A DNA stretch of 34,492 bases from assembly GCA_001771545.1 (NCBI GenBank), contig MEUC01000039.1, positions 1 through 34,492 on the forward strand, written 5' to 3'. The notes beneath the pieces were generated by a model that did no database searches, had not been told where the DNA came from, and saw nothing but the letters and a program-made list of their open reading frames with translations. Shown here in pieces: positions 28,721-32,777 of this stretch. A program made the translations under genes and the position numbers. The DNA is from a candidate division WOR-1 bacterium RIFOXYB2_FULL_42_35. GTDB taxonomy: Bacteria; Margulisbacteria; WOR-1; O2-12-FULL-45-9. Within the stretch, counting starts at the first letter, position 1; every line of letters starts with the position of its first letter.

Positions 28721-29839
28721 TTAATTTAAATATTTTATTGGGTCGGTTGGTTTGCCGTTTATTCTAACCTCAAAATGCAGGTGCGGGCCGGTAGAATATC
28801 CTGTATTGCCTTCAAGGCCGATCACTTGCCCCTTAGCAACGGAATCCCCTACTCCCTTATATATTCTGGAAAGATGACCATAGACAGTTGTCGTTTTGCG
28901 GCCGTGATCAACAACAATCGCTTTGCCATAACCATCCCACCAACCGGAGAAGATTACTTCCCCGGCATCAGCAGCACTAATGGGGGAACCATATTTGGCG
29001 GCAATGTCCAGTCCGGTATGGAAGGCTCTTCGTCGGTAAAATGGGTGACGTCGATAGCCAAAACGAGAGGTTATTCTCCCTTTAAGCGGCCAAATAAAGC
29101 TCCCACTGCCGCTAACCTTTGTTCCTTTCCCTGTAGCAACCTTTTTCAAAATCAAAACCTCAAGATCTTGCGAGCTTTTTTCCAGCTCGGCAATCTGATC
29201 TTCATATTCCTGGCTTCTTTGTTTAAGCGATTTATAGATTTTTTCTTTTTCTTCGGCCACAACCTCAATTTCGGTTTTTTTCTTAGTTATGATTTCAGCC
29301 AAATCTTTTATTTCTTCGGTTTTTGTTTTGAGGGTGACCTTTTTTGTTTTTGCGCTTTGCACTTCTTGGCGAACACTCTGAATCAAGTCGGCATCATAAT
29401 CTACAATCTTCTTAAAAAAATACATTCTGTTAAAGAAATCAGACATTGATTTTGAAGAAATGAGCAGTTCAAGATAGTTCAGGTTGCTGCTCTTGTAAAC
29501 TTCCCTGAGTCGGGCAACTAGCCGAGCCTCTTTTTGTTTTAACCCTTCCTCTGTTTGTCTAAGCTCAACCGTAAGCTTGCCTATTTGCGCTTGGTTCCCT
29601 TCTATCCGCTTTTGGGCAGACTGCAGGGTTTTTTTTGTTTCTTTAAGCTCTTTGTTGATGGTTGCCAACCGTCCCAAGACCGCCTGCTCTTCTTGTTTGG
29701 TTTTTTTAAGCGCTTCCTTCCGCTCTTGCAGTTCTTTTTGGATAGATTCCAGCTTTTTTTCTTCGTTGGCAGCATAAGCAGGGGCCAAAAGTGTCAGCAT
29801 AAAAAAAAGTAAAAAAAAGACGCTAAAAAGTCTTCTCAT
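28721..29839 (-). CDS. EnvC-like murein hydrolase with coiled coil and M23 peptidase domain
   Basis: A secreted protein of 372 aa: signal peptide MRRLFSVFFLLFFMLTLLAP to about residue 23, a long charged coiled coil (about 25-235), then a LytM/M23 domain. All zinc ligands are present: HTGLD (His and Asp), YGHLS, and GPHLHFEVR. So unlike E. coli EnvC, whose LytM domain is catalytically dead, this one should be an active endopeptidase. It probably acts in peptidoglycan remodelling at division. I choose ATG 29839 because the signal peptide starts there and TGC-TATGCT lies 9 nt upstream; upstream in-frame codons would bury the signal. Confidence 0.9.
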   Translation of the reverse strand: MRRLFSVFFLLFFMLTLLAPAYAANEEKKLESIQKELQERKEALKKTKQEEQAVLGRLATINKELKETKKTLQSAQKRIEGNQAQIGKLTVELRQTEEGLKQKEARLVARLREVYKSSNLNYLELLISSKSMSDFFNRMYFFKKIVDYDADLIQSVRQEVQSAKTKKVTLKTKTEEIKDLAEIITKKKTEIEVVAEEKEKIYKSLKQRSQEYEDQIAELEKSSQDLEVLILKKVATGKGTKVSGSGSFIWPLKGRITSRFGYRRHPFYRRRAFHTGLDIAAKYGSPISAADAGEVIFSGWWDGYGKAIVVDHGRKTTTVYGHLSRIYKGVGDSVAKGQVIGLEGNTGYSTGPHLHFEVRINGKPTDPIKYLN

Positions 29840-29848
29840 TGGAAAACA

Positions 29849-29878
29849 AGCATAGCATAAATGGTGGCTAGTTGGCAA
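29849..29878 (-). promoter_or_regulatory. Promoter of the EnvC-like gene
   Basis: On the minus strand, TTGCCA (29878-29873), an 18-bp spacer, TGC plus TATGCT (29857-29849), then 9 nt to ATG 29839. It overlaps the 3' end of uvrC. No ribosome binding site. Confidence 0.6.
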
Positions 29879-31127
29879 ACAGGCTCTTTTTACGTTTTTC
29901 CCGATGAAAAGTAATCGCAAAACGATGAACCTCATCCCTAACTCTCTGTAATAATCGTAATGCCGCTGAAGTTTTGGGAAGCTTTAAATCTTCTCCGCTA
30001 GCGAAACAAATTGTCTCTTCTCTTTTTGCTAAACCAATCATGGGGAGAGAAGTTAGCCCGGCTTCTTTAAGCGCCTGCTTGGCCGCGTTAACTTGGGCAT
30101 GGCCACCATCAACTAAAATCAAATCGGGCAAAGGCAACCTTTTGCTTAAAGAAAGCGTGTAGCGTCTTTTTATAACTTCAAGAATAGCGGCAACATCGTT
30201 TGGTTTATCTTCAACGCTTCTGATCTTAAAACGCCGATAGTCCTTTTTTAAAGGAATACCTCCATAGAAAACCACCATTGCTCCCACCATGTTGGATCCA
30301 GAAATATTCGAGACATCAAAAGCCTCAATTCTCAAGGGTGACTTCCTTAGCCTGAGAACCGTTTTTAATTCTGTTAGATCCGCTAGGTTAAGGGGAACAG
30401 GGGCCTTTCTTAGGCCTTGTCCCTCTAACAACTTTTGCAAAGTTTTTATCTTGTCCCTCAGATAGGCCGCCATTTCATAGTCAAGTACCCTGGAAGCTTT
30501 TTTCATTTCTTGGTTCAACTTTTTAAGGGCTTTGTCACTTTTCCCTTTTAAAAGCAAAAGAATCCCCCGAATAAGGTTCAGGTAATCTTTACGACATATT
30601 TTGCCAATGCAGGGACCGGAACAATTGCCAATACGATAAAAAAGACAGGGCTGTTGGCGCTTTTTTAGCGGTGATTCTTTGCACCATCGAATAGGGAAAA
30701 TTTTTTTTACCAATAGTATGGCTTCTCTGGCTACTCCCCCAGGGAAAGGGCCAAAATAAAGGGATCCGTCCTGTTCCTTTTTGCGCACAAAAAGCAGACG
30801 CGGCCATTCTTCGTGGATGGTCAGTTTTAGAGATGGGTATGTTTTGTCGTCTTTTAGCGAAATGTTATAGCGTGGTTGATATTTTTTGATCAGCCGATCT
30901 TCAAGAATTAAAGCATCCGATTCTGAGCCGGTAGCAATATATTCAACATCCCGCAGGCGACCTGCTAATATCTGAGTTTTAATGTCATCGTGAGGCTGAA
31001 AATAAGAGGCAACTCTTTTGCGCAGCGATTTGGCCTTACCAACATAAATAATTAGCCCTTTATTGTCTTTAAATAGATAAACGCCTGGTTTGTCGGGGAG
31101 GGATTTCAACTTCTCTTTAATGTCCAC
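29868..31127 (-). CDS. uvrC: Compact UvrC excinuclease subunit
   Basis: A 419-aa UvrC, well short of the usual 550-620. Present: GIY-YIG nuclease (GVYLF 15-19, YVGKAKSLRKR 28-38, Glu76), a Cys cluster at 149, 161, 169 and 173 with the 12-8-4 spacing of the UvrC iron-sulfur site, a UVR helix (about 204-236), and the RNase H-like 5' nuclease with Asp271, Asp340 and His401. Absent: most of the segment between UVR and nuclease domains, and the C-terminal helix-hairpin-helix domain. The GTG 31127 start lies 6 nt after TGC-TATAAC and gives the expected N-terminus; the longer Arg-rich extension upstream is not credible. Confidence 0.9.
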   Translation of the reverse strand: MDIKEKLKSLPDKPGVYLFKDNKGLIIYVGKAKSLRKRVASYFQPHDDIKTQILAGRLRDVEYIATGSESDALILEDRLIKKYQPRYNISLKDDKTYPSLKLTIHEEWPRLLFVRKKEQDGSLYFGPFPGGVAREAILLVKKIFPIRWCKESPLKKRQQPCLFYRIGNCSGPCIGKICRKDYLNLIRGILLLLKGKSDKALKKLNQEMKKASRVLDYEMAAYLRDKIKTLQKLLEGQGLRKAPVPLNLADLTELKTVLRLRKSPLRIEAFDVSNISGSNMVGAMVVFYGGIPLKKDYRRFKIRSVEDKPNDVAAILEVIKRRYTLSLSKRLPLPDLILVDGGHAQVNAAKQALKEAGLTSLPMIGLAKREETICFASGEDLKLPKTSAALRLLQRVRDEVHRFAITFHREKRKKSLFAN

Positions 31128-31203: not shown

Positions 31204-31704
31204 CTATTGTTCGCTTTTCTCTGCCGTCTCTTCTTTTTTCTTCTCCGCCTTATCCTCGGCCTTCTTTTCCACCACAACTTTTATCACGGCAGAGATTTCC
31301 TTATAAAGCCTAACGGTTACGGTGTATTCACCCAAAGCCTTAATAGCCTCACTAAGATGGATTTTTTTCTTATTTAGCTCTACATCAGCAATCGCCTTAA
31401 TTGCATCCGCAATATCTTGAGAAGTAACCGAACCAAAAAGCTTCCCCTCTTCCCCTGCTCCAGCTGATATTTTAATCTCTAGAGAAGCCAGTTTTTGTGC
31501 TAATTGCTCAAACTCGGCTTTTTTAGCTGCCAAACGCTTTGTTTTTTCAGCGCCTCTTTTTCCCACGGCGACCAATTCGCTCTTGGTGGCTACAACAGCC
31601 AGTCTTTGCGGCAAAAGAAAATTGCGGGCATAGCCTCCGGCAACCCTAACAACATCATCAATTTCCCCGAGGTTTTCCAGATCTTTTCTTAAAACAACTT
31701 CCAT
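31204..31704 (-). CDS. rplI: 50S ribosomal protein L9
   Basis: L9 of 166 aa. The N-terminal RNA-binding domain reads LENLGEIDDVVRVAGGYARNFLLPQRLA (10-37), with the canonical GYARNFLLP. A long linker helix is followed by the C-terminal domain (KLFGSVTSQDIADAI, about 88-102). The C-terminus has an extra Lys/Glu-rich tail of about 20 residues beyond the usual end. It starts one base after the rpsR stop and ends the rpsF operon. Confidence 0.97.
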   Translation of the reverse strand: MEVVLRKDLENLGEIDDVVRVAGGYARNFLLPQRLAVVATKSELVAVGKRGAEKTKRLAAKKAEFEQLAQKLASLEIKISAGAGEEGKLFGSVTSQDIADAIKAIADVELNKKKIHLSEAIKALGEYTVTVRLYKEISAVIKVVVEKKAEDKAEKKKEETAEKSEQ

Positions 31705-31970: not shown

Positions 31971-32378
31971 CTAAAATGGAATTTCTTCTTCGCTACTTTG
32001 GGCTAAGGAATCTACAGTTTTTTCCTCAACGGGCACAGAACTGGCTCCATCGGTCTTTCTGCCCAACATTTGCATGTTATCGGCCACAACTTCAACCATG
32101 GTCCGTTTTTCGCCGGTTTTAGCATCATATGTTCTGACCTGAAGCCGGCCTTCAATCGCAACAGGTCGTCCTTTTTTTAAAAACTCGCCACAAATTTCGG
32201 CCAATCTGCGCCAGGCAACAATATTAATAAAATCAACATCTTGTCCTGTTTCCCCAGAATCTTTGCGTTTAAACCGATTAACCGCAAGAGCAAAATGTGC
32301 TACTGGAATTCCTGAGGCCGTGTAGCGCAATTCTGGATCACGAGCCAAATTTCCAATTAAAAAAACTTTATTATACAT
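31971..32378 (-). CDS. ssb: Single-stranded DNA-binding protein, second tandem copy
   Basis: SSB of 135 aa with an OB fold: NKVFLIGNLARDPELRYTASG, FINIVAWRRLAEICGEFLKKG, EGRLQVRTYDAKTGEKR. A short linker leads to the acidic tip ending EEEIPF, the protein-interaction tail. The gap to the preceding ssb is 3 bp and no clear ribosome binding site is visible, so translation probably depends on coupling. This copy is closer to the standard rpsF-ssb-rpsR version. Confidence 0.93.
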   Translation of the reverse strand: MYNKVFLIGNLARDPELRYTASGIPVAHFALAVNRFKRKDSGETGQDVDFINIVAWRRLAEICGEFLKKGRPVAIEGRLQVRTYDAKTGEKRTMVEVVADNMQMLGRKTDGASSVPVEEKTVDSLAQSSEEEIPF

Positions 32379-32381
32379 AAT

Positions 32382-32777
32382 TTAAAAAGGTAAATCCTCT
32401 GCCAGGCCCAAATCGTCTTCGGGTTCGTTATTCGTGGCTACTTGTACTGGCTGATGCTCTGCTTGTGACTGCGATTTTTCCATCATTTGGATGCTGCGTG
32501 CCACAACTTCTGTTGCCCAACGGCGCTGTCCAGCCTGATCTTCAAAAGAACGAACTTGAATCCGCCCCTCAACTAAAATCATTTGCCCTTTTTTGAGATA
32601 GTCACGGCAGATTTCAGCTTCTTTTCTCCAGGCAACGATGTCGATAAAATCCGTACCACCAAAAGGCCGATTCACCGCCAAGCTAAACTTTGCCATTAGC
32701 AAGCCTTCCATCGTGCTGCGGGCTTCTGGGTCGGCGGTAAGTCGTCCAACTAGAATAATCCGGTTAAGGTTAGCCAA
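32382..32777 (-). CDS. ssb: Single-stranded DNA-binding protein, first tandem copy
   Basis: SSB of 131 aa starting at TTG 32777 inside the rpsF end (8-bp overlap), with an AGGGGG stretch upstream. OB-fold motifs are NRIILVGRLTADPEARSTMEG, FIDIVAWRKEAEICRDYLKKG and EGRIQVRSFEDQAGQ. The linker is Gln/Ser-rich and the C-terminal tip ends LAEDLPF. It is clearly diverged from the copy at 31971-32378, so the duplication is old or one copy was acquired. Both keep functional tails. Confidence 0.93.
   Translation of the reverse strand: MANLNRIILVGRLTADPEARSTMEGLLMAKFSLAVNRPFGGTDFIDIVAWRKEAEICRDYLKKGQMILVEGRIQVRSFEDQAGQRRWATEVVARSIQMMEKSQSQAEHQPVQVATNNEPEDDLGLAEDLPF

Follow-up and report, generated by a model that had tools for sequence, protein, structure and literature searches.

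A compact UvrC without helix-hairpin-helix and middle domains in the candidate division WOR-1 class

Described UvrC architectures and the WOR-1 gene

Orthodox UvrC proteins (TIGR00194), such as those of E. coli, Thermotoga maritima and Bacillus, carry a GIY-YIG nuclease, a four-cysteine (Cys4) module, a UVR motif and an RNase H nuclease in this order, together with a middle domain (PF22920) and C-terminal helix-hairpin-helix motifs, (HhH)2. In the part of PMC1564403 used here, this architecture is given as C4-UvrBb-EndoV-HhH for 318 members, and a review (PMC7835731, likewise used in part) cites E. coli evidence that (HhH)2 is required for single-stranded DNA binding and 5′ incision. Both kinds of domain loss are already in print for Helicobacter: as described in PMC9426483 (2022), the UvrCs of H. 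felis and H. suis have no middle region (‘strikingly absent’), and every Helicobacter UvrC aligned there has an HhH region truncated to a single motif or none at all. The same source assigns to H. pylori UvrC a role in chromosomal microimports that is independent of the nuclease sites and HhH. According to PMC9426483 and PMC7835731, a complete structure of UvrC was unavailable.

The window analysed here is the whole stretch of 34,492 nucleotides from contig MEUC01000039.1 of candidate division WOR-1 bacterium RIFOXYB2_FULL_42_35, a 51-contig draft genome with one UvrC locus. Reading on the minus strand from a GTG at 31127 to a TAG at 29868-29870, this locus encodes a UvrC of 419 aa (Table 1), which passes the curated threshold of the TIGR00194 uvrC equivalog (cut-off 285.45 bits). 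The order of its domains and its catalytic residues are those of orthodox UvrC. Alignment revealed that Y17, Y28, R38, E76 and N88 of the GIY-YIG domain are all kept, as is the D-D-H triad D271, D340 and H401 of the RNase H-like domain (PF08459, UvrC_RNaseH_dom); these correspond to the metal-site and catalytic positions of model UvrCs. C149, C161, C169 and C173 are spaced 12-8-4 and are predicted to hold an Fe-S cluster, and the UVR motif is predicted to bind UvrB. The initial annotation of a 419-residue UvrC retaining both nuclease sites and the 12-8-4 cysteines therefore agrees with Pfam, TIGR00194 and the aligned residues.

Table 1. Features of the compact uvrC gene and its neighbours in the window
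Feature	Position	Strand	Basis
Compact uvrC gene, GTG to TAG, 419 aa	29868..31127	-	ORF; TIGR00194 439.5 bits
GIY-YIG nuclease domain, aa 14-88, 3′ incision site	30864..31088	-	Pfam PF01541; Foldseek to 1yd6
Four cysteines, aa 149/161/169/173, presumed [4Fe-4S] site	30609..30683	-	Alignment
UVR (UvrB-binding) motif, aa 199-232	30432..30533	-	Pfam PF02151, E 5e-9
Junction, aa 233-255, site of absent PF22920	30363..30431	-	115-132 extra residues in relatives; model
RNase H-like endonuclease domain, aa 256-405, 5′ incision site	29913..30362	-	PF08459, E 7e-52; PDB 2nrt
C-terminal basic tail, aa 406-419, preceding the position of the absent HhH	29871..29912	-	ORF, alignment
M23 peptidase with coiled coil, downstream neighbour	28721..29839	-	Pfam; ATG at 29839
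Ribosomal protein L9, upstream neighbour	31204..31704	-	Pfam

Unlike orthodox UvrC, the window protein has neither the middle domain nor (HhH)2: Pfam gave no match for HhH or PF22920 in the 419-aa sequence, and a genome-wide search found no PF22920 elsewhere in the same genome. The absence of the C-terminal HhH, noted in the initial annotation, was confirmed with a UvrC-HhH profile, which gave no HhH reading near the gene in any frame; as also noted, the stop lies 28 bp before the start codon of the M23 peptidase gene. No detached UvrC-type HhH copy was found in the genome. Since HhH is absent from the protein, from its vicinity and as a detached copy, and PF22920 is likewise lacking, we file the protein as a compact rather than an orthodox UvrC. 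It is also distinct from Cho, which shares the GIY-YIG and Cys4 region but has a C-terminal domain of its own and no RNase H nuclease (PMC1564403, as far as used here), in place of the UVR motif and RNase H domain of the window protein; the Cho model NF007833, with its cut-off of 367 bits, gave the window protein only 64.1. Further upstream on the minus strand of the window, two adjoining ORFs (31971-32378 and 32382-32777) both resemble single-stranded DNA-binding protein in their translations, as judged by eye.

An AlphaFold2 model of the 419-aa protein had a pLDDT of 87.8 with a low pTM (0.49), residues 238-245 at the junction falling below a pLDDT of 50 and the C-terminal tail lying within a long helix (388-418). 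Foldseek matched the model to C-terminal halves of UvrC (2nrt, E 6e-17) and to UvrC GIY-YIG domains (1yd6, E 1e-9). In the model of a full-length comparator from Heliobacterium (L087), the middle domain consists of strands and helices at residues 250-345, from where a long helix (347-388) runs towards the nuclease; the relative placement of domains is unreliable in both models. As the matches listed in a PDB sequence search were solely partial UvrC chains, a UvrC of about 420 residues is offered as a target for structural work.

The compact form across the WOR-1 class and its phylum

A UvrC match was found in all 31 genomes of the candidate division WOR-1 class, also named Saganbacteria and placed by GTDB in the phylum Margulisbacteria. 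Two of the UvrCs (G016 and G017) are cut by contig ends, leaving 29 complete ones. HhH is absent from every one of them (29/29) and the middle domain from 28, the sole exception being a 537-aa UvrC (L030, genome G020) with a middle domain and no HhH. PF22920 was correspondingly found in one of the 31 class genomes versus 11 of 14 control genomes.

The search of the phylum took in 74 genomes. Of the 43 that lie outside the class, 39 gave a UvrC match, and all 39 sequences were judged. Seventeen of them have HhH and 22 do not; the middle domain occurs in each one whose frame spans the junction, a test that leaves aside a fragment beginning after the junction (G075) and a gene split over two contigs (G036). 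Within the phylum, HhH loss is thus widespread and loss of the middle domain confined to the WOR-1 class. In full-length relatives, PF22920 (UvrC Ribonuclease H-like domain) lies between the UVR motif and the nuclease and HhH (PF14520) follows the nuclease; PF22920 was scored in seven of the eight relatives scanned but not in L035, although this protein has 127 residues at its junction. The initial annotation was right that a stretch before the RNase H-like domain is missing, but its estimate of 80-100 residues was a little too low, the junction of relatives outside the class being 115-132 residues longer.

The sizes of both regions are bimodal. Among 122 aligned sequences, junctions measured 9-26 residues without the middle domain and 127-160 with it, and tails 0-7 residues without HhH and 56-107 with it, rows cut by contig ends excepted. 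Excluded before this alignment were L027 and L029 (contig ends), L072, L090, L099, L114 and L121 (partial or broken) and L051 (the same record as L022). No aligned class member departs from the triad D271/D340/H401. In the same alignment, E76 is a gap in L028 and the first tyrosine a gap in L032, L040, L043, L048 and L124, for at least four of which the choice of start codon is the explanation. One class member of 391 aa (L031, G001:C96) has an in-frame gap that removes all four cysteines, with both nuclease sites and the UVR motif kept.

Proposed working of the compact UvrC

Fourteen of the most similar class pairs were listed for a test of selection; dN/dS was 0.10-0.16 in the eight that were computable, the other six giving no computable synonymous distance. 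These values mark the class uvrC as an undamaged gene, not a pseudogene. Conservation of the RNase H triad and a dN/dS near 0.1 also argue that the 5′ nuclease is under selection. The potential partners are in place as well: all 31 class genomes have a UvrA scoring over the cut-off and 28 a UvrB that does so, the three without such a UvrB (G007, G022 and G030) being listed as 80-89% complete. The genome of the window itself encodes full-length UvrA and UvrB, the latter with a C-terminal UVR motif, and contains no second full-length UvrC. In 17 other genomes, 16 with a compact UvrC and one full-length control, the search for a second UvrC yielded only further pieces of the one gene or short weak stretches; three extra matches, the frames of which measure 209-700 aa, were limited to the surroundings of the UVR motif, and a weak extra match in G069 contained three stops. 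The view in the initial annotation that the shortening is settled is upheld by the common end point of the 29 complete class proteins, the low dN/dS and the lack of any HhH nearby or detached, and the compact UvrC is a settled natural variant rather than a broken gene.

Beyond the domain content, residue conservation, class-wide distribution and purifying selection observed for this protein, we consider it likely that it is the genuine and sole UvrC of the organism, making both incisions of UvrABC repair with minimal parts, and that it was inherited vertically within the class. In the proposed mechanism, the UVR motif would dock on the UVR motif of UvrB, the GIY-YIG domain would make the 3′ cut and the RNase H domain the 5′ cut, with the Cys4 (Fe-S) module retained in the minimal enzyme. 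The 5′ cut would be positioned without HhH, through the docking on UvrB, the DNA surface of the RNase H domain itself and the basic tail. We infer that the compact UvrC makes both cuts; dual incision would be expected to be normal, and most of the positioning would come from UvrB.

The statement in the initial annotation that HhH is normally needed at the 5′ incision has a basis in E. coli, but its generality is weakened by H. pylori, in which cells lacking the hairpin of the single HhH were not markedly more susceptible to UV (PMC9426483). Because HhH is required for 5′ incision in E. coli according to the consulted part of PMC7835731, a 3′-only or context-limited enzyme is conceivable: UvrC would bind UvrB and make the 3′ cut, the 5′ cut would be weak or limited to certain sequence contexts, and another nuclease or a helicase would complete excision. 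Cho, an existing 3′-only UvrC homologue (PMC1564403, in part), provides a precedent. We regard such reduced function as unlikely, given that D271, D340 and H401 are kept in all aligned class members and that dN/dS is about 0.1 over the whole gene.

The microimport role of H. pylori UvrC (PMC9426483, as described there in part) raises the alternative that the WOR-1 protein has been repurposed and now serves chiefly in recombination or some other process, repair being a side role. Retention of the nuclease residues, the UVR motif and both UvrA and UvrB speaks against this, and we find it quite improbable. Slightly less probable again is supply of the HhH function in trans by another protein. The UvrC-HhH profile did match two proteins of the same genome at E <= 0.001, but these are the ordinary HhH proteins DprA and RuvA. 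In the other class genomes the profile matched frames of about 195-260, 356-426 and 561-682 or more residues, lengths as expected of RuvA, DprA, DNA ligase and similar proteins (identities assumed from length), and in five of the 31 class genomes it matched nothing. That an assembly error or frameshift shortened a normal UvrC, as a 51-contig draft might allow, is refuted by the relatives, all 29 complete class members stopping at the same place, and by the lack of an HhH reading in any frame before the closely following gene, leaving it next to no probability.

Recurrence in other phyla and number of origins

The architecture is not peculiar to this genome: it is common to the class and recurs in other phyla. 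Among the best 80 loci of a genome-contig scan, a sample biased towards query-like forms, neither domain was present in three Omnitrophota (L055, L058 and L062), two Endomicrobia (L056 and L067), two Levyibacteriota (L073 and L075) and another Patescibacteria record (L128). UvrCs without the middle domain but with HhH came from Verrucomicrobiota and relatives, Anaerovibrio slackiae, a WS6 genome and one Omnitrophota.

Three phyla, each named after its centre locus, were then sampled evenly. In Elusimicrobiota, all 60 sampled genomes matched, every match running through the junction without a middle domain, and HhH was absent from the 20 UvrCs examined (20/20). Among 59 sampled Verrucomicrobiota genomes, 57 matched, all 57 without the middle domain, and HhH was present in 20 of 20 UvrCs examined, so that in the sampled members of this phylum the middle domain alone was lost. 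The phylum of the Levyibacteriota locus (59/59 sampled genomes matched) has mixed architectures: of 20 UvrCs picked for lacking the middle domain, nine have HhH and 11 do not.

The compact UvrCs of Elusimicrobiota, some Omnitrophota and Patescibacteria, roughly 410-470 aa long, have the same four-part architecture as the WOR-1 form, but a single origin with it is rejected by sequence trees. The UvrCs of Verrucomicrobiota and of Anaerovibrio slackiae (L052) resemble the window protein in lacking the middle domain and differ from it in keeping HhH. The Helicobacter variants share middle-region and HhH losses with the window protein, as known here from the description in PMC9426483 (used in part); their losses are scattered within one genus whereas the WOR-1 loss is class-wide, a comparison made by description, not alignment. 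Open-licence literature, searched mainly by titles and the starts of abstracts, yielded no paper describing UvrC losses in WOR-1, Elusimicrobiota, Omnitrophota or Verrucomicrobiota.

Trees were built on 397 core columns, an 87-row tree without 35 of the 122 rows and a 58-row tree without 29 more. In the 87-row tree, all 25 rows from the class group together (SH-aLRT 100), and the sister of the Anaerovibrio slackiae row is a full-length UvrC from Selenomonadaceae (SH-aLRT 99). With 58 rows, a single ancient compact lineage was rejected, whether all rows with neither domain were placed together (AU p 2.2e-5), or all middle-less rows were joined as one clade (p 3.6e-67, or 4.2e-5 without Anaerovibrio), and so was a grouping of WOR-1 with the PVC, Omnitrophota and Endomicrobia rows (p 7.6e-4), to which rejection the separation of Endomicrobia from the PVC rows in this tree contributes. 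These results argue for more than one loss; the number is not fixed, since the AU sets were chosen after inspection of quick trees with a weakly supported backbone. A clade of the class minus G020 was not rejected (AU p 0.465), so the class may have lost the middle domain just once: G020 may stand at the class base, implying one loss, or be nested inside the class.

We tentatively suggest that the four-part UvrC (GIY-YIG, Cys4, UVR and RNase H) could be a complete dual-incision machine, relied upon by entire bacterial lineages, to which HhH and the middle domain are separable add-ons, the loss of which may shift the 5′ cut or the choice of lesion. If so, these phyla would have an incision pattern unlike that of E. 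coli. The whole WOR-1 class and, in the samples, the whole phylum Elusimicrobiota live with one UvrC without HhH or the middle domain, which makes the roles of both domains testable on naturally occurring forms as well as on engineered ones, the natural comparison taking the place of deletions.

Among UvrCs the Fe-S site is not universal, as the cysteines are missing in the rows of five Verrucomicrobia MAGs (L077, L080, L082, L085 and L092) and two of the four are replaced in the two Levyibacteriota UvrCs (L073 and L075), in contrast to all four in the window protein. In Anaerovibrio slackiae (L052), represented by a strain genome, the middle domain is lost and the Selenomonadaceae relative L113 keeps it; in this named strain, then, the loss is recent. 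Finally, the UvrC of L065, from a record titled Candidatus Paceibacterota MAG15, has as its tree neighbour, with very short branches between them, the UvrC of Verrucomicrobia subdivision 6 (L066), and its contig may be misbinned.
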